This document shows, piece after piece, positions 17,111-28,237 of a stretch of 59,178 nucleotides of DNA. The stretch is from an alpha proteobacterium HIMB59 (GTDB lineage: Bacteria > Pseudomonadota > Alphaproteobacteria > HIMB59): positions 1 through 59,178 of the forward strand of contig SGZV01000005.1 of NCBI GenBank assembly GCA_004321805.1, given 5' to 3'. The first letter of the stretch is position 1. Each line of letters opens with the position of its first letter. Below the pieces are notes generated by a model. That model did not search any database. It was not told the origin of the DNA and saw only the letters and a list, made by a program, of their open reading frames with translations. The position numbers and the translations under genes are program-made.

Positions 17111-17219
17111 TTAATAACTATTTTTCCACAGTTTTCTTTAACTTCAAAAGATAATCATATTTTTTTAATGTAAAATCAAATTACCTATAAGGGTAGGTAT
17201 AAGGTTGGAGGTTATAAAG

Positions 17220-17246
17220 ATGAAGCCACCAAAGTATATAAGTTAA
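17220..17246 (+). CDS. Possible 8-codon leader or mini peptide (MKPPKYIS)
   Basis: ATG at 17220 is preceded by a perfect GGAGG (17207-17211) with 8-base spacing, one of the best ribosome sites in the whole window. It encodes only MKPPKYIS before TAA. The Pro-Pro pair could slow ribosomes. Hairpins and a terminator follow at once. This could be a regulatory leader peptide, a translated small RNA, or a chance match. Confidence 0.3.
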   Translation: MKPPKYIS

Positions 17247-17267
17247 CATTGCGTAACTTTAAATATC

Positions 17268-17290
17268 AAAATCTCTTTTAAAGAGATTTT
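17268..17290. repeat. 23-base palindrome (hairpin)
   Basis: AAAATCTCTTT and its exact reverse complement AAAGAGATTTT flank a single T. In RNA it would form an 8-bp AAAATCTC/GAGATTTT stem with a short A/T loop. It lies between the mini-ORF and the terminator hairpin. Confidence 0.6.
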
Positions 17291-17317
17291 CTTAGTGCAA
17301 ACTAAGAAGTATATACA

Positions 17318-17361
17318 AAGAATGGACTTACCATTGTTCATAACTTTGGTAAGCCATTCTT
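17318..17361 (+). terminator. Strong terminator hairpin, possibly bidirectional
   Basis: Arms AAGAATGG (17318-17325) and CCATTCTT (17354-17361), plus CTTACCA (17327-17333) and TGGTAAG (17347-17353), give about 15 pairs with one bulged A and a 13-base loop. On the + strand it is followed by a T-rich tract, fitting an intrinsic terminator. It starts 2 bases after the Rieske stop on the other strand, so it may also protect that mRNA's 3' end, although no U tract follows in that direction. Confidence 0.7.
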
Positions 17362-17363
17362 CC

Positions 17364-18506
17364 TTATTCTTTTAATTTTTTTCTAACATATATGTGAAAG
17401 TCTCTGATTATGTATTCTTCAGGCATCAAGACACCAGAATTTTTTTCTAAATTATAAATCCCTCGTTGGTTAACTTCAGATATATTTGCATCTTGATTCA
17501 TAACTAGTATTCCAAAATCTATTACATTTTCCATTTTATATATGGAGTTTGATAGGGTTGATTTTGGAAACAACCATTCAGCAGTTAATTCAACTTCCTC
17601 TGAACTTATGGGAATAAGTCTAACTATTCTTATATGATCGCCATATATCCCAAGAAACATTGTTGGCCATGTGGATATATATATCTGCCCTCTTGATTCC
17701 AATTCAGACTGTACATCCTCAATACTCTGGCCTTGAGAGCTACCATCTACAGACCAAGTTTCTGCACCATTTTTCAAGCCACCATGATATTTTGAATGAG
17801 AGTTAGTTTTTTTTAAGATAACCCATTCTGGATGATCTTTTATATCTACAAGTCTTCTTTGATAAAGAGGAACTAAATCAGATAATTCAGGATGGATATT
17901 TGGACAATGTAAACATTCACTATAATTCTCCCAATAAATTTTCCAATTACACAGAACGTTTTTTTTCCAAACATGTCCTACAACAAAGTTTTCTAAATCT
18001 ATTTTTTCAATTGTTTTATCATAATATTGAAAAGTAGATTGAAGATTAAATTTTTTTTTAGAATTAAGATTAACAAATACAAGTCCCTTCCAAATATAAA
18101 AATTTACTTTTTGTAAACTGTATTTTTTTTTATCAAAGTTTTTTAATTTTAAAGATGTTGTATTTAATAGTTTTCCACTACTTAACTCATAAGACCATTG
18201 ATGATAAGGACAAATAATGATTGGAGACTTAACCTTTCCCTCTTTTTGATCAAAAATTTGAGATCCTCTATGTGAACAGGTATTATAAAATACAGAAATG
18301 TCATTCAGCTTATTCTTGATAAGAACAATATTTTTATTATTGACACTCAGTGTTCTATAATGGTTTTTATCTATAGAGCTTATGTGACAAACATATAGCC
18401 ATTCATCATTAAAGATTTTAGTAATTTCTTTTTGAAAAATTTTTTGGTCATAATACCATTTAAAAGGAAGAGATTTCTCAGGCTTTGTTAAAGAGTTTGA
18501 CTTCAT
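17364..18506 (-). CDS. Rieske non-heme iron oxygenase, catalytic (alpha) subunit
   Basis: Ring-hydroxylating or demethylating oxygenase. 380 residues. The Rieske [2Fe-2S] ligands are Cys77/His79 (CSHRG) and Cys99/His102 (CPYHQWSY). The mononuclear iron site is ENYSECLHCPNIHPEL (His200, His205) with a C-terminal Asp in VMNQDANISEVNQRG. Layout and length fit GbcA/carnitine-oxygenase-like proteins as well as aromatic dioxygenases, so the substrate is open. No reductase gene is adjacent. It is divergent from the 18553 gene across only 46 bases, suggesting shared control with the desaturase/PanB-like block. Confidence 0.88.
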   Translation of the reverse strand: MKSNSLTKPEKSLPFKWYYDQKIFQKEITKIFNDEWLYVCHISSIDKNHYRTLSVNNKNIVLIKNKLNDISVFYNTCSHRGSQIFDQKEGKVKSPIIICPYHQWSYELSSGKLLNTTSLKLKNFDKKKYSLQKVNFYIWKGLVFVNLNSKKKFNLQSTFQYYDKTIEKIDLENFVVGHVWKKNVLCNWKIYWENYSECLHCPNIHPELSDLVPLYQRRLVDIKDHPEWVILKKTNSHSKYHGGLKNGAETWSVDGSSQGQSIEDVQSELESRGQIYISTWPTMFLGIYGDHIRIVRLIPISSEEVELTAEWLFPKSTLSNSIYKMENVIDFGILVMNQDANISEVNQRGIYNLEKNSGVLMPEEYIIRDFHIYVRKKLKE

Positions 18507-18552
18507 ACTATGAATCTTAACCTATCTTGCTAATAATATGTTAAGATAATTT

Positions 18553-18975
18553 ATGATTATTTTCATTTCTAAATTTTTACATCTTTTTTCATTACTTTTA
18601 GCAGGTGGTGGGGTAATTGGTGCTGCTGTTATACAGTCAATTTATAAAAAAGAGGGAAAAGTTCCTGAGCCCCATTTGGCGAAGAGTTTTCGTATCTTAG
18701 CTTTTTTGTCCCTGATAGCTATTATTACGATGTGGGTAACTGGAATATTGCTAACTTTAGTTATATACGGTGGATTTAATTTAGGCTGGTCATTTCATTT
18801 GAAGCTCCTAGGTGCAACACTTATTCTCATAGGAAGTATCATTATCAATCTTCACCTAAAAAAATCAGCTAAAAATCAGTCACCTCCCAATCAAACAACT
18901 ATGAAATACTCTGCATCAATGGCAAGAATAGGATTTTTATTTGCTCTAGGTGGGGCTATTTGGACTTTTGCATAA
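18553..18975 (+). CDS. Small four-helix membrane protein (CopD/DUF2269-like topology)
   Basis: 140 residues with four predicted membrane helices (about 4-28, 46-70, 78-98, 118-138). Histidines sit in or near helices in KFLHLFS, SFHLKLLG and NLHLKKS, as in small heme- or metal-binding membrane proteins such as CopD-like or HemJ-like families, but I cannot assign it to either. It lies 37 bases before the desaturase-like gene on the same strand, so it may supply electrons or a cofactor to that enzyme (inference). Confidence 0.65.
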   Translation: MIIFISKFLHLFSLLLAGGGVIGAAVIQSIYKKEGKVPEPHLAKSFRILAFLSLIAIITMWVTGILLTLVIYGGFNLGWSFHLKLLGATLILIGSIIINLHLKKSAKNQSPPNQTTMKYSASMARIGFLFALGGAIWTFA

Positions 18976-19012
18976 TATTCAATTTTTTAGAGAATTATGC
19001 TAATTTAGGAAT

Positions 19013-19993
19013 ATGCAAGTTGATCTAAACAAATGGCATCGTTGCGAAGTTGATAAACAAGAATTTGTTGAACTATTAAAAAAATCTGACTATCAGGGTT
19101 TTAAACATATGTTTATTTTCTTTGGCTCTTTAGTCTTTTTTGGTTATTTAGCCTATGCAACATGGGGTACATGGTGGACAGTTGTGTTTTTTCTTATCTA
19201 TGGAAATATTTGGAATTGTGCAGATCCTATTTGGCATGAAACAGGACACAAGACAGCTTTTAAAACTAATTTTTGGAACAATTTTTTTTATCAAGTAGGA
19301 AGTTATATGAATGGATTTGAACCAGTTCGATGGAGGTGGTCTCATTTTCGTCATCATGGATACACTTTTTTTGATGATCCTCTTGATTTTGAAATAGCTA
19401 TAAGAAAACCAGCAGATGTTTTCTACTTTTTTAGTTTATTTATTCCGTTTTATGATTTTATTAATTTTAAAAAGACGACTCAATACGAAACAATTCTTCA
19501 TGCTTTAGGAGTGAAGACTGATGTAATGAAACAAGTCATTCCTGAAAAAGAACATCAAAAATGCATTAACTCTTCAAGATTACATGTTGCAATTTGGTTA
19601 GTTCTAATTGTTATCTCCATCATATTTCAATCTTGGTTACCCGTTCTTTATTTTCTTCTACCTAGCTACTATGGAATAACTTTAAAAAGACTATTTGGTT
19701 TGACACAACACACAGGTCTAAAAGATAATATTAAAGACCATCGCTATAGTACACGCACGATGCATTTAAATCCTATTTTTAGTTTTTTATATTGGCAAAT
19801 GGAATATCATATTGAACATCATATGTTCCCTACTGTACCCTCCCATAATCTACCTAAGCTCCATGAATTAATAAAAGATCAAATGCCTCCTGCCAAAAGA
19901 GGCCTTTGGGGTGCCTATTCAGAAATTATTCCAACTATTCTTAAACAAGCAAAAGACCCTAATTATGAACTTAAGGTAGCTGTTCCACAGTAA
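19013..19993 (+). CDS. Fatty-acid-desaturase-family membrane di-iron oxygenase
   Basis: Membrane di-iron enzyme of the desaturase/hydroxylase superfamily. 326 residues with paired membrane helices and three His boxes: HETGH (75-79), HFRHH (111-115) and HIEHH in the C-terminal part (around 270). Members oxidise acyl chains, carotenoids, alkanes or small amines, so the substrate is not fixed by sequence. It is followed after 5 bases by the PanB-like gene. Pairing with a PanB-like gene and a nearby GS-like ligase argues for a small-molecule substrate rather than membrane lipid (inference). Confidence 0.85.
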   Translation: MQVDLNKWHRCEVDKQEFVELLKKSDYQGFKHMFIFFGSLVFFGYLAYATWGTWWTVVFFLIYGNIWNCADPIWHETGHKTAFKTNFWNNFFYQVGSYMNGFEPVRWRWSHFRHHGYTFFDDPLDFEIAIRKPADVFYFFSLFIPFYDFINFKKTTQYETILHALGVKTDVMKQVIPEKEHQKCINSSRLHVAIWLVLIVISIIFQSWLPVLYFLLPSYYGITLKRLFGLTQHTGLKDNIKDHRYSTRTMHLNPIFSFLYWQMEYHIEHHMFPTVPSHNLPKLHELIKDQMPPAKRGLWGAYSEIIPTILKQAKDPNYELKVAVPQ

Positions 19994-19998
19994 ATACT

Positions 19999-20784
19999 TT
20001 GACTAAAAGAATATCTGTTTATGACTTATGGAGTCAAAAAGGAAAAAAAAAGTGGGCCCAAACACATATCGATACTGATATTGAGGCAGAAGCAGCATTT
20101 AAAGCTGGAATAGAAATAATCTCTTGCGAGCCAGATCATTATTTTCCTAAAGTCAGACAAGTAGCGTCAGGAGCCTTTCTTTCAGTAGGATTAAAACACG
20201 GAACAGTGAGTTCTGAACAAGAAGCTGTAAAAAGAGGATTTGAGATCTTGGAAATGGGTGGTGATGCCGTTTATTGTTCTCATTCTGTCAAATGGATAGA
20301 AGCTATGGCAAAAGAAGGCATTCCAGTAACTGCGCATGTTGGGCTGGTTCCAAATCGTGCCACTTGGACAAATTATCGGGCAGTTGGTAAAACAGCTGAA
20401 GAAGCCTTAAAGGTTTTTCAAGATGTTAAAGATTTAGAAAACGCGGGTGCCGCCTGTGTAGAAGTTGAGGTAGTTCCAGTTGAATTAGCAGATTTTATCA
20501 CAAGAAATACTCAAATGATTACAATGGGTATGGGATGTGGTGATGTTTGTGATACACAGTATTTATTTTGTAATGATATTTTAGGAACAAATGAGGGACA
20601 TTATCCGAGACATGCTAAGAAATATGTAGATCTTCAAAAAGAAGAAGAGCAAATTCAAAATTTAAGAATAAAAGGTTTTAAAATGTTTATTGATGATATG
20701 AATTCTGGTAAATATCCAGAAAAAAAGCATCAAATTAATATGGACTTAACTGAATTTGAAAAATTTCAAAATAAAATTAAATAG
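19999..20784 (+). CDS. Divergent PanB-like protein (ketopantoate hydroxymethyltransferase fold)
   Basis: 261 residues aligning by eye along the whole length of PanB (PEP mutase/isocitrate lyase superfamily TIM barrel). Kept features are TAHVGLVP (PanB His136 region), EVVPVELA (catalytic Glu181 region) and EGHYPRHAKKY. Replaced are Mg ligand Asp45 (VGDSLG becomes SCEPDH), Asp84 (ADLPF becomes VGLKHG), Lys112 and Glu114 (KIEGG becomes YCSHS). It is therefore unlikely to make ketopantoate. The start is a TTG at 19999; the next in-frame Met is too late. It overlaps the convergent GS-like gene by 8 bases. Confidence 0.8.
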   Translation: MTKRISVYDLWSQKGKKKWAQTHIDTDIEAEAAFKAGIEIISCEPDHYFPKVRQVASGAFLSVGLKHGTVSSEQEAVKRGFEILEMGGDAVYCSHSVKWIEAMAKEGIPVTAHVGLVPNRATWTNYRAVGKTAEEALKVFQDVKDLENAGAACVEVEVVPVELADFITRNTQMITMGMGCGDVCDTQYLFCNDILGTNEGHYPRHAKKYVDLQKEEEQIQNLRIKGFKMFIDDMNSGKYPEKKHQINMDLTEFEKFQNKIK

Positions 20785-22174
20785 CATTAAGGTATAAATC
20801 TATATCTAACTCTGAAACAGTACTGGCCACTTTTTGATACTCCATTTCTTTAATAGCAATAAGAGCCCTATGAAGATCTGGACCAAGGGTATCTTTTAAA
20901 AATTTTGATTTCTTTGCAGCTAAAATAGAAGAGCTCCAATCATGTGGCATGTTATTTATAGATTTTGATTTTTGTTCATAAGCATTCCCCTTAGTTTGAT
21001 TGGGTGCTTTGATTTTATTTTTTATCCCATAATCAATGGCTGAAATTACAGTTAAAGCAACTAGATAAGGGTTTGCATCAACACCAGAAACACGGTGTTC
21101 TATTCTTCTATTCATGCTACTACTAGACGGAATACGAAAAGCAACAGACCTATTATCTAAACCCCAATTAGGAGTTACGGGTGCATAGGAACCAAGCACT
21201 AACCTTCTCCAACTATTAGCATTAGGTGCAAATACCAGCATGCTTTCACCCATGGTTTTAGTTAAACCTCCAAGAGCATTTAGAAGATTAGGATTTAGAT
21301 TATTTTTAGATTTTTCAGAAAAAATATTTTTATCTTTTTTATCATACATCGAAACATGAAAATGCATTCCAGATCCAGAAGTACCTTCCATTGGTTTTGC
21401 CATAAAACAAGCAGTAACACCATGTGCACGGGATTGAGATCTTATAATTCTTTTAAGTCTGATGATATCGTCTGCTGCTTTAAGTAGATTATTTTGATGT
21501 CTAAGTGTTAATTCATACTGCCCAGGTGCATATTCAGAAATTATTGTCTCTGCTTCAATACCTGCAGCATTTGTAGCATCATAAATATCATTAATCAAAG
21601 GGAGCATCCCATGTAGATTATCGACAGAATAAACATCTGTTTTTCGGTGAGATCTTTTTTTTCCTATAATAGATTTTGCAGGTTGAAGTTTACCATACTG
21701 ATCTAATTCATTAGCTACTAAAAAAAACTCTAATTCAAAGGCTCCACATAATTTGATGCCATTTTTTTTGAAAGAATTAATTTTTGTCTCTAAAACATTT
21801 CTAGGATCGATATTTAATTTGTTACCATCAATATCAGACATGGTCATAAAAAGCTCACCTCTTGGAGGACTACTTTTATGAATTACATTCAAAGATTTAG
21901 CTATTGGCCAAGCTTTTATGTCTCCATCTCCTTGCTCTAAAATTAATCCAGTATCAGGTACATCTTCACCAGTGATATCCATTCCTAGTAGCGATAGTGG
22001 GAATTGTCTTCCAGACTCGTATAATTTTAATAATTCATTTCGCCTTATTATTTTCCCCCTGCCTATTGCATTACAATCATGCATAACAATATCAAAAGAC
22101 TTTATTTCAGGATGTTTCTTTAAAAAGCTTTTGGGTTCGCTAAGTAAGCTAGTATTTTTCTTTAAGATAGGCAT
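20777..22174 (-). CDS. Glutamine synthetase family ligase (PuuA-like)
   Basis: ATP-dependent gamma-glutamyl ligase of the GS fold. 465 residues. Motifs are FELEFFLV, EYAPGQYELTLRH, GSGMHFHVSMY, and NRSVAFRIPSSSSMNRRIEHR with DANPYL. Length and NRSxAFRIP resemble gamma-glutamylputrescine/ethanolamine or methylamide synthetases rather than classical GlnA. It faces the PanB-like gene tail to tail with an 8-base overlap. The likely role is activating or detoxifying an amine within the neighbouring pathway (inference). Confidence 0.85.
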   Translation of the reverse strand: MPILKKNTSLLSEPKSFLKKHPEIKSFDIVMHDCNAIGRGKIIRRNELLKLYESGRQFPLSLLGMDITGEDVPDTGLILEQGDGDIKAWPIAKSLNVIHKSSPPRGELFMTMSDIDGNKLNIDPRNVLETKINSFKKNGIKLCGAFELEFFLVANELDQYGKLQPAKSIIGKKRSHRKTDVYSVDNLHGMLPLINDIYDATNAAGIEAETIISEYAPGQYELTLRHQNNLLKAADDIIRLKRIIRSQSRAHGVTACFMAKPMEGTSGSGMHFHVSMYDKKDKNIFSEKSKNNLNPNLLNALGGLTKTMGESMLVFAPNANSWRRLVLGSYAPVTPNWGLDNRSVAFRIPSSSSMNRRIEHRVSGVDANPYLVALTVISAIDYGIKNKIKAPNQTKGNAYEQKSKSINNMPHDWSSSILAAKKSKFLKDTLGPDLHRALIAIKEMEYQKVASTVSELDIDLYLNAI

Positions 22175-22240
22175 ATGTATTATTATAAATGATGATTATT
22201 ATAGATATTTTAGATCTTATATAGTAATAATTCTATCTTT

Positions 22241-22314
22241 GGCCCGCTGGCAGATTGGTTATGCAGAGGACTGCAAATCCTTGTAGCTCGGTTCGATTCC
22301 GGGGTGGGCCTCCA
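22241..22314 (+). tRNA. tRNA-Cys (GCA)
   Basis: 74 bases with CCA encoded. The acceptor GGCCCGC pairs with GTGGGCC (one G-T), the discriminator is T73 as expected for tRNA-Cys, the anticodon GCA is at 22273-22275 in loop CTGCAAA, and the T-arm is GGTTCGATTCC. Upstream 22175-22240 is the divergent promoter region shared with the GS-like gene. Confidence 0.97.
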
Positions 22315-22322
22315 AAAACTTA

Positions 22323-22505
22323 TTAAATTATTAATAGATATAAACTTATCAAAATCATTAATATTGAGCCTACAAAACAAAATTTGAAAACTTTATCTAT
22401 AACTCCAAATTCTTTTTTTTCTTTATATTTCTTTCTTGCAATGTACATGGCAGCAGTAAAAATTGATAGAAACCAAAAAGAATTTACTGCTAATTCAGCG
22501 TCCAT
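22323..22505 (-). CDS. Small membrane protein, two helices (60 aa)
   Basis: 60 residues with two hydrophobic segments (about 5-23 and 40-60) separated by a Lys-rich loop (ARKKYKEKKEFG). No recognised family. It is the last of a leftward run of tiny genes after the AhpD-like gene and ends 8 bases from the tRNA-Cys 3' end on the other strand. Coding status rests on the membrane-protein pattern and compact fit in the run. Confidence 0.5.
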   Translation of the reverse strand: MDAELAVNSFWFLSIFTAAMYIARKKYKEKKEFGVIDKVFKFCFVGSILMILISLYLLII

Positions 22506-22550
22506 TTCTAAAATATTACCTTCTTAATTTCAAAATTATATAAATATTTA

Positions 22551-22811
22551 CTAATGTTTAGTACATAGATTGTGATAAAGAGTTGATATTTTTAAAACGT
22601 ATTTTTCTAAATCTTTCATTTTATGAAATCTATCTTCTTCAACTAATTGACCGCTAACTAGATCATTATAAAGAATTTCTAATTCATCATCATTATTGCC
22701 CATTAGAATTATTAAATCCTGACAAAGTTTCTTACTACCTACTATTTGTATTGCATATGCATTAAATGAAAAAAAGAGTACTAAGAGAAACGTTACTATA
22801 GAATTCTTCAT
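22551..22811 (-). CDS. Small secreted protein (86 aa)
   Basis: Starts best at the ATG at 22811 (MKNSIVTFLLVLFFSFNAYA), giving a textbook signal peptide with cleavage after AYA. A TTG three codons upstream would overlap the previous gene by 4 bases. The mature part is about 66 residues with two cysteines (KLCQDL and HNLCTKH) that could form a disulfide, and an acidic NNDDELEIL stretch. Probably periplasmic. Function unknown. Confidence 0.6.
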   Translation of the reverse strand: MKNSIVTFLLVLFFSFNAYAIQIVGSKKLCQDLIILMGNNDDELEILYNDLVSGQLVEEDRFHKMKDLEKYVLKISTLYHNLCTKH

Positions 22812-22816
22812 AAATA

Positions 22817-23026
22817 TCAAAAATCAAACCAACCTAAAACATATGCTGCGACTCCCACTAATCCAATTGTAATAAGAAGCATGATGACAAAAATTCTGTC
22901 GAGTTTATCGTATTCAGCAACTTGTGTATTATTTAAATTTTCATTTTCATCATAAATTTTGTTTCTTTTTACATAAACAAATATTGTTATAATTAAAGAT
23001 ATGCAAAAAAGTATAAATGCCCACAT
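22817..23026 (-). CDS. Small membrane protein, two helices (69 aa)
   Basis: 69 residues: a hydrophobic N-terminal helix (about 2-18), a polar middle (RNKIYDENENLNNTQVAEYDKLDR) of about 27 residues (quoted part: KIYDENENLNNTQVAEYD), and a second helix (about 47-66) ending in GWFDF. A strong TAAGGAG site precedes the ATG at 23026 by about 7 bases. Unknown function. Part of the same tiny-gene run. Confidence 0.6.
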   Translation of the reverse strand: MWAFILFCISLIITIFVYVKRNKIYDENENLNNTQVAEYDKLDRIFVIMLLITIGLVGVAAYVLGWFDF

Positions 23027-23045
23027 AGCGCCTCTCCTTACTTAA

Positions 23046-23147
23046 TCATTTTTTCTTTTTGTAAAATATTAAACCTATAACAATAATTGAAATTCCTAAA
23101 ATCATTAAAAGTTCACCAGCATTCCAAAACCAAACAAGAAAATCCAT
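23046..23147 (-). CDS. 33-residue single-pass membrane protein
   Basis: ATG at 23147 overlaps the stop of the AhpD-like gene in a TAATG coupling. The protein is MDFLVWFWNAGELLMILGIS followed by IIVIGLIFYKKKK: one hydrophobic helix capped by four lysines, fitting an Nout-Cin single-pass protein. Its stop is followed after 7 bases by the TAAGGAG site of the next gene. No known family recognised. Confidence 0.5.
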   Translation of the reverse strand: MDFLVWFWNAGELLMILGISIIVIGLIFYKKKK

Positions 23148-23554
23148 TAATCTTGTCTATCAGCATCAAAAATTTCATCAATGGGTACTTGCAGACCATT
23201 AACTAATTGATTAGTTTTTGCCGCTAATGCTACAATACTTAAGAATTCAGAATGCTCCTCTTGAGTCATTCCCAATTTTTTAGCAGTAGCTGTATGAGAA
23301 TGCGTACAATAACTACAATTGTTTGTTATTGAAACTGCCATATAGATCATCTCTTTTGTTTTTTTATCAATAATAGTGTCTTTGACCATGAGATTTTTTA
23401 CATCCTCCCAGACATTTTTTAGTAATGATGAGTCAAATGCAAGGTATCTCCAAAAATTTCCGATGTAATTAGTTTTTCGTGAGTCTCGAATATCTTGATA
23501 AATATTTTTAACACTTGGGTCACTTTCATCAGGAGTTTGTTTAATCGTGCTCAT
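23147..23554 (-). CDS. AhpD-like / carboxymuconolactone decarboxylase family protein
   Basis: 135 residues of the AhpD-like alpha-helical superfamily. The redox motif CxxCxxxH is NCSYCTHSH (Cys80, Cys83, His87), so a thiol-peroxidase or disulfide-reductase role is more likely than true lactone decarboxylation. It is the first gene of the leftward tiny-membrane-protein run and divergent from the MFS transporter. Redox partners are unknown. Confidence 0.82.
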   Translation of the reverse strand: MSTIKQTPDESDPSVKNIYQDIRDSRKTNYIGNFWRYLAFDSSLLKNVWEDVKNLMVKDTIIDKKTKEMIYMAVSITNNCSYCTHSHTATAKKLGMTQEEHSEFLSIVALAAKTNQLVNGLQVPIDEIFDADRQD

Positions 23555-23614
23555 ATTAAAACCTTTCGTATTATAATTGCTTAATTGAAATTAAATCATA
23601 GTATCCCTTAAGTT

Positions 23615-24808
23615 TTGTTCAATTTTATTTATAAGAATATTCACCTTTTATCATTTGGATTCTTAATAGCGTTCTCTTCAGGGTTTGGTCAAACCTTTTT
23701 TATATCGCTTTTTAGCAATGATTTTAGAGAGACTTTTTCATTAACTAACACAGAATTTGGAAGTATTTATTCAATCGCCACTGTTCTTAGTGCCATAACA
23801 ATAATCTGGGCAGGTAAATTAATCGATACTGTTAATTTAAAGAAATACACCCTAGTTATTGTCTTTGGTATGGCTTTGACATGCTTAATGGCAAGCATGA
23901 TCTTTAATATATTTTTTCTTTTTTTAACAATTTATTTTTTAAGACTTTTTGGCCAAGGTTTAATGGGACATACATCACGAACAACGATGTCTCGATATTT
24001 TAATACCAATAGAGGAAAAGCCCTAGCTATTTCAGGATTTGGTTTTTCAGTTGGTGAAATGGTATATCCATCAATAGTTGTTCTTTTATTACTAACAATT
24101 GGTTGGAGATTAACTTGGTTTAGTTCCGCTATCTTTATATTCTTTATATTTGGATTAAGTTTTTATTTATTATTAAGAAATAATAATTTTCAAATTGAAA
24201 ATAATTTTAATGACGAAACTGAACCTAATCAAATATCTTGGAAAAGAAGAGAGGTTTTAAAGGATACAAAATTTTATATTTATTTACCGTTATCTCTCTT
24301 AATGTCATTTACTGTGACTGGATTTCTTTTTCATCAAGTATTCATAGCCGACCTAAAATCTTGGACAATGACTAATTTAGCTCAAAGTTTTATTTTCTAT
24401 GCAATATTTGGAACAATTGGATCGGTCATTTCAGGTATATTGGTAGATAAATTTACAGGTAGAAAATTAATTCCCTTTCATTTAATTCCGATGGCAATAA
24501 TTTTAGGAACACTCTTATTGTCTGATCATGTATATATTTTATATCTCTATATGGCGGGCTTAGGATTTTCAAATGGTTTTACTGAAAATACATCTAACTC
24601 TTTATGGGCAGAAATGTATGGGGTAAATAATTTAGGATCAATTAAGGCTTTATTAACCTTTTTTGGAGTAATGGCTTCAGCTTCTTCTCCTTTTTTATAT
24701 GGAATATTATTAGATCAAACAAATTCTATTAATATATTAATTTATTTAAGTTTAATTCTTATTTTAATTTTTTCTTTAATGGCTTATTTGGGAAAAAATT
24801 TTAAATAA
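23615..24808 (+). CDS. MFS transporter (oxalate/formate antiporter-like)
   Basis: Twelve-helix major facilitator, 397 residues. Motif-A-like WAGKLIDTVNLKK follows helix 2, with a second copy at VDKFTGRKL after helix 8. The FIYFLRLFGQG (approx.) and RTTMSRYFNTNRGKALAISGFG segments (quoted: SRYFNTNRGKALAISGFG) resemble monocarboxylate/oxalate-formate type carriers. TTG start at 23615; no better start is in frame. Its position after the oxygenase block makes it a candidate importer for that pathway (inference). Overlaps the exonuclease gene tail to tail by 8 bases. Confidence 0.82.
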   Translation: MFNFIYKNIHLLSFGFLIAFSSGFGQTFFISLFSNDFRETFSLTNTEFGSIYSIATVLSAITIIWAGKLIDTVNLKKYTLVIVFGMALTCLMASMIFNIFFLFLTIYFLRLFGQGLMGHTSRTTMSRYFNTNRGKALAISGFGFSVGEMVYPSIVVLLLLTIGWRLTWFSSAIFIFFIFGLSFYLLLRNNNFQIENNFNDETEPNQISWKRREVLKDTKFYIYLPLSLLMSFTVTGFLFHQVFIADLKSWTMTNLAQSFIFYAIFGTIGSVISGILVDKFTGRKLIPFHLIPMAIILGTLLLSDHVYILYLYMAGLGFSNGFTENTSNSLWAEMYGVNNLGSIKALLTFFGVMASASSPFLYGILLDQTNSINILIYLSLILILIFSLMAYLGKNFK

Positions 24809-27004: not shown

Positions 27005-27815
27005 GAATATTTAATAGCTTATAAAATTTATCCATATGTTCCATTAAAACATTATCATAAGTAACAAGATGTTTGTCCTCATCAACAAAATAACTTTTTT
27101 TAGGTTCATTTGCTAATTCAAACATCTTTTCTCCCATCCAAAAAGGAACAATATCATCACCTTTGGCATGCATTATAAAGATAGGAGATTTTATGTTTTG
27201 TATTTTATTTACACTTAAATACCTGTCTTTAAGCATTATAGAGACTGGAAGATAAGGATAATGATATTTAGCGGCATCAATCATTGAAGTGAAAGGAGCT
27301 TCAAGAATAATACCTTTAAAAGGTTTATTTTGAGACACTTCTAATGAAACAGCAGTGCCCAAAGACTCTCCGTAAATGACAATATCCTCAATAGAAATTT
27401 CTTTATTTTGAAGCCATTTAATTGCACTTAGAGCATCATCATATAAGCCTTGTTCATCCGGATCTCCATCGTTACCACTGTATGACCTCCATGAAATCAA
27501 AAGTATATTTTGATTATACTTTGCTAATTTATTTATTTTATAAAATCTATTTTCAATGGGACCGGCATTACCATGAAACATTAGCAATGTATTTTTAGTA
27601 TTATTGGGATTTGTATAAAAAAGAGATCTGAGTTTATTACCATTGCTATTTGTTATGAACACCTCTTGAGCATCTATAGTAAGAGCTTCATCGTCATAAT
27701 TATCAATATTAGGGATATATAAAAGAGATCGCTGCTTTAAATAAACATAAAAAACGATTAGACAATAAATAAATAAAAGTATTCCAATAATTTTAAATAT
27801 TAATGATAAATTCAT
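26997..27815 (-). CDS. Membrane-anchored alpha/beta hydrolase (BEM46-like)
   Basis: 272 residues. An N-terminal helix (about 4-26) anchors the protein; the catalytic part has the oxyanion HGNAG loop, the nucleophile elbow GESLG and a C-terminal KHLVTYD His region, with Asp in HAKGDDIVPF. Resembles the BEM46/ABHD13 group, likely an esterase or thioesterase. Neighbour of an acyl-CoA synthetase, so the pair may release and activate acyl groups (inference). Confidence 0.82.
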   Translation of the reverse strand: MNLSLIFKIIGILLFIYCLIVFYVYLKQRSLLYIPNIDNYDDEALTIDAQEVFITNSNGNKLRSLFYTNPNNTKNTLLMFHGNAGPIENRFYKINKLAKYNQNILLISWRSYSGNDGDPDEQGLYDDALSAIKWLQNKEISIEDIVIYGESLGTAVSLEVSQNKPFKGIILEAPFTSMIDAAKYHYPYLPVSIMLKDRYLSVNKIQNIKSPIFIMHAKGDDIVPFWMGEKMFELANEPKKSYFVDEDKHLVTYDNVLMEHMDKFYKLLNIHE

Positions 27816-28237
27816 TTGATTTTATAAATTAGATTATCAAAAAAACCATTAGCAGATTTCATAAATTTTTTATGTTTATTGGAAAATGATAGATTAGATT
27901 TTTTATCTTTATAATAAATATGGCCTTTTACAGGAACTTTAGAATTAAGTGAGCCTGTTGAAACAGCAATTTCATGATTGAATTGACGAGACTGAAAAAA
28001 TAAAGAACTACCACAATTATTACAAAAACCCCTTTTAAATTTCTTACTGGATAAAAACCATTTCAGCCCTTTTTTAGATAAAAATTTAAAATTGTTATTT
28101 TGAACTTTAGTATAATTGCTAAATTCAGCATTTGATTTTTGACACATTGTACAATGACAGAGTATTGAATATCGACATTCATTTATTATCTCAAAAGAAA
28201 TACTTTTGCATAAACACGATCCTTTAATTTTTTTCAT
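27812..28237 (-). CDS. GFA family zinc protein (CENP-V/GFA)
   Basis: 141 residues of the glutathione-dependent formaldehyde-activating fold. Zn cysteines: Cys8/Cys10 (SCLC), Cys27/29/32 (CHCTMC), Cys72/Cys75 (FCNNCG). The family is named for spontaneous formaldehyde-glutathione adduct formation, but members are broadly distributed and activity here is unproven. Overlaps both neighbours by 4 bases. Interesting beside a demethylase-type Rieske enzyme 9 kb away. Confidence 0.85.
   Translation of the reverse strand: MKKIKGSCLCKSISFEIINECRYSILCHCTMCQKSNAEFSNYTKVQNNNFKFLSKKGLKWFLSSKKFKRGFCNNCGSSLFFQSRQFNHEIAVSTGSLNSKVPVKGHIYYKDKKSNLSFSNKHKKFMKSANGFFDNLIYKIK

Follow-up and report, generated by a model that had tools for sequence, protein, structure and literature searches.

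The mocDEF genes are required for the use of rhizopine, an O-methyl inosamine, according to PMC10107442 (citing Bahar 1998), and clusters beside a LacI-type homologue of FixV have been termed mocDEF (PMC3538637). R. mesoamericanum induces mocDEF homologues in response to Mimosa root exudate, the most concentrated component of which is pinitol (PMC5789663). Marine bacteria demethylate 6-O-methyl-galactose oxidatively by means of a P450 and its redox partners (PMC10033563), and in SAR11 methyl oxidation linked to tetrahydrofolate (THF) is completed by FolD, Fhs, and formate dehydrogenase (PMC3160333). The sugar use of abundant streamlined marine bacteria is partly unexplained (PMC10308909). Here we describe a pair of adjacent genes, DESAT and PANBL, in a 59,178-nucleotide stretch of DNA (contig SGZV01000005.1; the window) from an alphaproteobacterium of the HIMB59/AEGEAN-169 type whose assembled genome spans 1.07 Mb and is 80% complete. 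The family assignments and the pairing of the two genes are firm, and we propose that their products may act as an oxidative demethylase and its one-carbon partner. The genes under discussion are listed below.

17364-18506, minus strand: RIESKE, a Rieske non-heme iron oxygenase alpha subunit (Pfam Ring_hydroxyl_A and Rieske)
18553-18975, plus strand: MEM4, a four-helix membrane protein (sub-threshold Pfam match to UPF0093)
19013-19993, plus strand: DESAT, a MocD-like membrane di-iron oxygenase of the FA_desaturase fold (PF00487, 124 bits)
19999-20784, plus strand: PANBL, a PanB-like TIM barrel with a TTG start (PF02548, Pantoate_transf, 127 bits)
20777-22174, minus strand: GSL, a glutamine-synthetase-like ligase (PF00120, Gln-synt_C, 316 bits)
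23615-24808, plus strand: MFS carrier
27812-28237, minus strand: GFA protein

DESAT and PANBL lie on the same strand with a gap of 5 bp, and PANBL and GSL are convergent and overlap by 8 bp. A preliminary description of this stretch had placed all five open reading frames from RIESKE to GSL at exactly these coordinates, its protein families are borne out by Pfam, and its remark that the stretch holds no reductase for the Rieske enzyme agrees with the open reading frame content. When scored against NCBIfam, RIESKE, DESAT, PANBL, and GSL all fall below the cut-off of any named function.

PANBL shares with PanB its fold and the H136 and E181 positions (E. coli PanB numbering) but lacks D45, D84, K112, and E114. 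In a Foldseek-based comparison covering a listed set of folds, the AlphaFold model of PANBL (mean pLDDT 82) matched PanB best, with a Z score of 28.5 over 226 aligned residues and 16.0 for the next family; further down, at Z of about 15, come class II aldolases, methylisocitrate lyase, and PEP mutase among others. A tree built from 35 PANBL and 22 PanB sequences places PANBL in a single clade apart from PanB with support of 1.0. In the corresponding alignment, D84, K112, and E114 are found in all 22 PanB sequences and in none of the 35 PANBL sequences, and the D45 column holds Asp in 22/22 PanB and possibly in 1/35 PANBL. H136 and E181 are kept in every PANBL sequence. We take D45, D84, K112, and E114 to be the metal (Mg) and keto-acid binding residues of E. 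coli PanB. Against the NCBIfam equivalog for PanB (TIGR00222), PANBL scores 102 bits and does not reach the cut-off of 207.6, and the same genome encodes an ordinary PanB elsewhere (L224) with all of these residues intact. Because the metal and keto-acid residues are lost and an intact PanB is present elsewhere, PANBL is very unlikely to make ketopantoate, judging from its sequence. A second PanB-like subfamily occurs in other Alphaproteobacteria (L206-L213), with about 30% identity to PANBL and scores of 140-173 bits; in several of these loci, PhyH-like genes lie within the fetched stretch.

DESAT carries the His motifs HETGH, HFRHH, and HIEHH, which are conserved in 36-40 of 40 relatives. 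Relatives adjoin MocE and MocF in a sister family within the order as well as in Rhizobium, Sinorhizobium, and Aminobacter, and by this analogy DESAT is a MocD-like oxygenase and a candidate demethylase. A sister-family genome can have as many as seven PanB-like matches, and the PANBL partners in this family comprise oxygenases of the FA_desaturase, FA_hydroxylase, or PhyH type together with a MocE-type ferredoxin and a MocF-type reductase. Its PANBL clusters, some with two or three oxygenases, also hold RbsABC-type sugar ABC transporters, an SMP-30 lactonase, and an arabinonate-dehydratase-like enzyme. At L067:4634-13598 and L069:6360-14542, three different membrane oxygenases sit with one or two PANBL copies, a lactonase, a sugar-acid dehydratase, and an RbsABC-type transporter, and both clusters look as if built for a multiply methylated sugar.

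More distant lineages keep comparable company. In Rhizobiales and Rhodobacterales, PANBL orthologues with 58-63% identity belong to an operon that runs LacI, PANBL, FA_hydroxylase-type oxygenase, (sugar-binding protein), MocE, MocF, PurU, and FolD. The core of this operon was found in about 50 loci, six of which contain PurU (L073, L074, L078, L079, L110, and L122), with FolD next in four. Transporter genes lie alongside the PANBL operon in Labrys (L117), and plasmids of R. leguminosarum and S. meliloti carry LacI and the series FA_desaturase, MocE-family ferredoxin, FAD reductase, and PANBL. In an independent family, an inositol operon (L204) combines RbsABC-type transport, MocE, and PANBL with IolG (422 bits), PurU (338 bits), and IolC/J (719 bits). 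When 289 genomes from across the class were surveyed, about a dozen from other orders reached PANBL-level scores (>250 bits), well clear of the 107-130 bits or so that PanB itself obtains. A count over 12 other alphaproteobacterial genomes, which leaves out the operons of rhizobia and the sister family, places an oxygenase or MocE within 5 kb of PANBL in 5/12 loci versus 1/20 PanB controls (Fisher p = 0.018). The pairing of PANBL with an oxygenase was not found described in a literature search (homarine operons, PanB with demethylation, SAR11 methyl-sugar demethylation) whose limited coverage means that it proves little. Within the HIMB59 order, Fhs is present in 39/40 relatives and PurU is above its cut-off in 0/50; the lack of Fhs in the window's own genome is consistent with its 80% completeness.

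We regard an oxidative demethylase with a THF-linked one-carbon partner as the best explanation of DESAT-PANBL, with a probability of about 0.55, and the preliminary description had already sounded this demethylation and one-carbon theme. The working unit would be the two-gene operon. The substrate of DESAT would be a small imported compound, most likely an O-methylated sugar or polyol; one of its methyl groups would be hydroxylated, and the carbon would be released at the level of formaldehyde. PANBL, without the metal and keto-acid site, would then transfer this carbon to THF to give 5,10-methylene-THF; it would either capture formaldehyde or accept the hydroxymethyl group directly. From there FolD, followed by the formate-THF ligase Fhs in the HIMB59 order or PurU in rhizobia, would lead to formate. 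PanB uses THF as a cofactor, in the form of methylene-THF, and in rhizobia the operon continues with PurU and FolD, which would take methylene-THF to formate; this points to a THF-bound one-carbon unit. By analogy with these systems a folate-linked role for PANBL is likely, with moderate confidence, and the particular reaction assigned to it is an inference. Inositol and sugar-acid genes near PANBL relatives suggest O-methyl polyols or sugars; as the substrate class for the window's genus, also proposed by analogy, these are a weak assignment to which we give slightly less than even odds. More doubtful is a broader proposal, that PANBL might be a dedicated enzyme for loading formaldehyde, or a fresh hydroxymethyl group made by the oxygenase, onto THF and might have arisen from PanB as a general one-carbon rescue partner of at least three oxygenase families (FA_desaturase, FA_hydroxylase, and PhyH).

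Several observations weigh against a THF-linked demethylation unit. In the genus loci, the 5 kb to either side of this PANBL hold neither MocE nor MocF, and the complete genome G029 has no MocE anywhere, its Rieske proteins being three oxygenase alpha subunits and a bc1-type Rieske protein. No sugar transporter or sugar gene stands beside DESAT-PANBL in the window. Within 5 kb of PANBL, 7/12 of the outside genomes show no recognisable oxygenase, and PurU and FolD are linked to it in a minority of loci. Folate binding by PANBL is predicted from its homology to PanB, and formaldehyde and THF condense without an enzyme, so a dedicated one is not required. A MocF query of G000 (80% complete) gave no match. 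Elsewhere in the window's genome (contig C4, L222:5004-8360), a second Rieske oxygenase is accompanied by a zinc alcohol dehydrogenase, a ferredoxin-NADP-reductase-like flavoprotein, and a CDGSH protein. Electrons for the Rieske enzymes of this genome could possibly come from the L222 cluster, and we would guess that its ferredoxin-NADP-reductase-like gene may serve both the local Rieske oxygenase and DESAT. MEM4 was considered as an electron donor to DESAT, a heme protein in the place of MocE, and was set aside as the leading idea: it adjoins PCMT where DESAT is missing from the site, and its sister-family homologues are far from PANBL.

Whether the window's genes form one pathway or several was addressed in 18 species sampled from the genus, all of them carriers of this PANBL (L033-L050). 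DESAT-PANBL is present in all 18, with identities of 74-87% for PANBL and 83-93% for DESAT; GSL is found in 18/18 loci, MEM4 in 17/18, and RIESKE in 8/18. In the other ten species the RIESKE slot, divergent from MEM4, is filled by a pair resembling carnitine dehydrogenase (352 bits, cut-off 414) and gamma-butyrobetaine dioxygenase (318 bits, cut-off 415), as at L040:10192-12304, and this pair never co-occurs with RIESKE. In some members of the genus, PANBL and GSL are separated by DUF1800 and DUF1501 family genes. MEM4 adjoins PCMT-ValS-IlvD in G015, where the other four genes are absent from the site; RIESKE adjoins MEM4 in G024 without DESAT-PANBL; and in G013 RIESKE is at one place and DESAT-PANBL-MFS-exoX about 7 kb off on the same contig. 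These three genomes break the group apart, and the site between PCMT and MFS/exoX is therefore variable and has received separate pieces. The variable stretch (window 17111-24808, L033-L052, and L214-L216) has constant flanks, PCMT on one side and MFS/exoX on the other, and the genes that come and go between them include betaine-type oxygenases, carnitine-type genes, DESAT-PANBL, GSL, DUF1800/DUF1501, CorA, and glyoxalase-like genes. Taken across the genomes compared, a conserved neighbourhood holds for DESAT-PANBL and does not hold for RIESKE, MEM4, and GSL, which look like separate neighbours of the DESAT-PANBL unit at a variable site.

This genus comparison bears directly on the view taken in the preliminary description, in which the Rieske enzyme, DESAT, PANBL, and GSL make up a single route that handles an N-methylated marine metabolite, for instance a betaine, homarine, or trigonelline. 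RIESKE is indeed closest to stachydrine, carnitine, and betaine enzymes, the genes that alternate with it in its slot likewise belong to quaternary-ammonium families, and GSL adjoins DESAT-PANBL in every one of the 18 loci. However, ten of these species keep DESAT-PANBL-GSL but not RIESKE; conversely, G024 has RIESKE and lacks DESAT-PANBL at the site, and G013 has the two at separate places; DUF1501 and DUF1800 genes separate PANBL from GSL in part of the genus; and in the loci examined outside the genus neither GSL nor RIESKE is linked to PANBL. Nothing in our results points to homarine or trigonelline as the DESAT-PANBL substrate. With RIESKE optional, MEM4 linked to PCMT, and MFS/exoX/GFA an independent flank, synteny does not support a joint pathway, and we consider it quite improbable.

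A different kind of alternative accepts the DESAT-PANBL unit and changes its chemistry. PANBL could be a folate-free lyase or aldolase, similar to PEP mutase or isocitrate lyase, that cleaves a substrate made by the oxygenase and yields no one-carbon unit. The fold neighbours after PanB do include such enzymes, the chemistry of PANBL must have changed because the metal site of PanB is lost, and pairing with PhyH as well as membrane oxygenases would fit a general step after oxygenation. Yet such lyases require a metal site, PANBL is without that of PanB, and PurU and FolD in the same operon are hard to explain without a THF-bound one-carbon unit, all of which makes a lyase or aldolase unlikely. 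It is also conceivable that DESAT is an ordinary lipid desaturase or hydroxylase, PANBL a spare ketopantoate hydroxymethyltransferase, and their adjacency incidental; annotation pipelines do call PANBL relatives PanB and DESAT relatives fatty acid desaturases. The missing metal and keto-acid residues, the intact PanB in the genome, and the recurrence of the pair in distant lineages, in the company of MocE/MocF and of genes for sugars or inositol, leave this prospect very remote.

The neighbours of DESAT-PANBL can be considered individually. RIESKE has a Rieske and a catalytic domain, and its nearest structures are 3n0q, 3vca/4qup (stachydrine demethylase), and 6y8j (carnitine monooxygenase). 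A Glu is kept at the bridging position (NYSECLHC). Its score against NCBIfam GbcA is 175 bits, short of the cut-off of 670. It is probably a member of the stachydrine, carnitine, and glycine betaine group with a function separate from DESAT-PANBL, and a quaternary-ammonium substrate is plausible, in agreement with the carnitine and gamma-butyrobetaine type genes that swap into the same slot. The preliminary description is supported as regards a betaine-type Rieske enzyme, the closest relatives being quaternary-ammonium demethylases (4qup, 6y8j), and its betaine proposal may apply to RIESKE alone. RIESKE is not linked to PANBL in the loci examined outside the genus; in Fuscovulum a homologue (31%) has as neighbours an aminomethyltransferase, another Rieske enzyme, and a polyamine-type ABC transporter. 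In two genus members (L214:6374-7396 and L215:7436-8458), a 341-aa protein without a Pfam match adjoins the Rieske oxygenase, and its start resembles a polyamine-type binding protein lacking a signal peptide.

MEM4 gave no match in a plasmid search. It adjoins PCMT in G015 and G024, where DESAT and PANBL are missing, and is probably an old neighbour of PCMT/ValS unrelated to DESAT-PANBL. GSL stays below the NCBIfam cut-offs for GGputSyn (174 versus 650) and GS III (178 versus 470), with a PuuA-like level of similarity. Polyamine gamma-glutamyl ligases adjoin transaminases, as do GSL relatives (45%) in Shinella and Pseudosulfitobacter (Rhizobiales and Rhodobacterales), and GSL would most likely be a ligase of this polyamine type. 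It is a genus-specific neighbour of PANBL: among the loci examined outside the genus, none has PANBL beside a GS-like gene. The MFS carrier, previously put forward as the importer, adjoins exoX with or without DESAT and is directly linked to DESAT-PANBL only in G013, so that this role was discarded. The GFA protein, formerly credited with handling formaldehyde, has a domain-level match only (20 bits against a cut-off of 235 for S-(hydroxymethyl)glutathione synthase) and is part of the separate MFS/exoX/GFA block; neither score nor context favours that role.

We know of no well-established dedicated enzyme that brings formaldehyde onto THF, which is generally depicted as a spontaneous reaction. 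For that step, a family derived from PanB and found in the company of demethylating oxygenases and of purU/folD is a concrete candidate that can be tested in culturable rhizobia. If the proposal is true, a common misannotation would be corrected, as PANBL proteins are named pantothenate enzymes, O-methyl sugars or polyols would be indicated as food for abundant streamlined marine bacteria, and there would be a hint at the rhizobial use of methylated inositols such as pinitol.

The MocDEF rhizopine O-demethylase complex of Rhizobium and Sinorhizobium offers one comparison. DESAT resembles MocD as an FA_desaturase oxygenase with intact His boxes, and relatives of DESAT and PANBL are located in clusters of this kind, with the MocE Rieske ferredoxin and MocF reductase beside a LacI regulator. 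The window's genus differs in having no MocE near DESAT or, in the complete G029, anywhere, and PANBL is absent from the moc description in the accessible portions of PMC10107442 and PMC3538637. The P450 system for 6-O-methyl-galactose is alike in that an algal methyl sugar is demethylated oxidatively and formaldehyde is released; the oxygenase is a P450 there and a membrane di-iron enzyme here, and the part of PMC10033563 available to us does not mention a PanB-like protein. In SAR11, GcvT-type aminomethyltransferases and sarcosine-type enzymes are found, and the available text of PMC3160333 was not found to describe a PanB-like entry step. The two schemes would meet further down the route, since the Fhs of the SAR11 scheme is near-universal in the HIMB59 order too.

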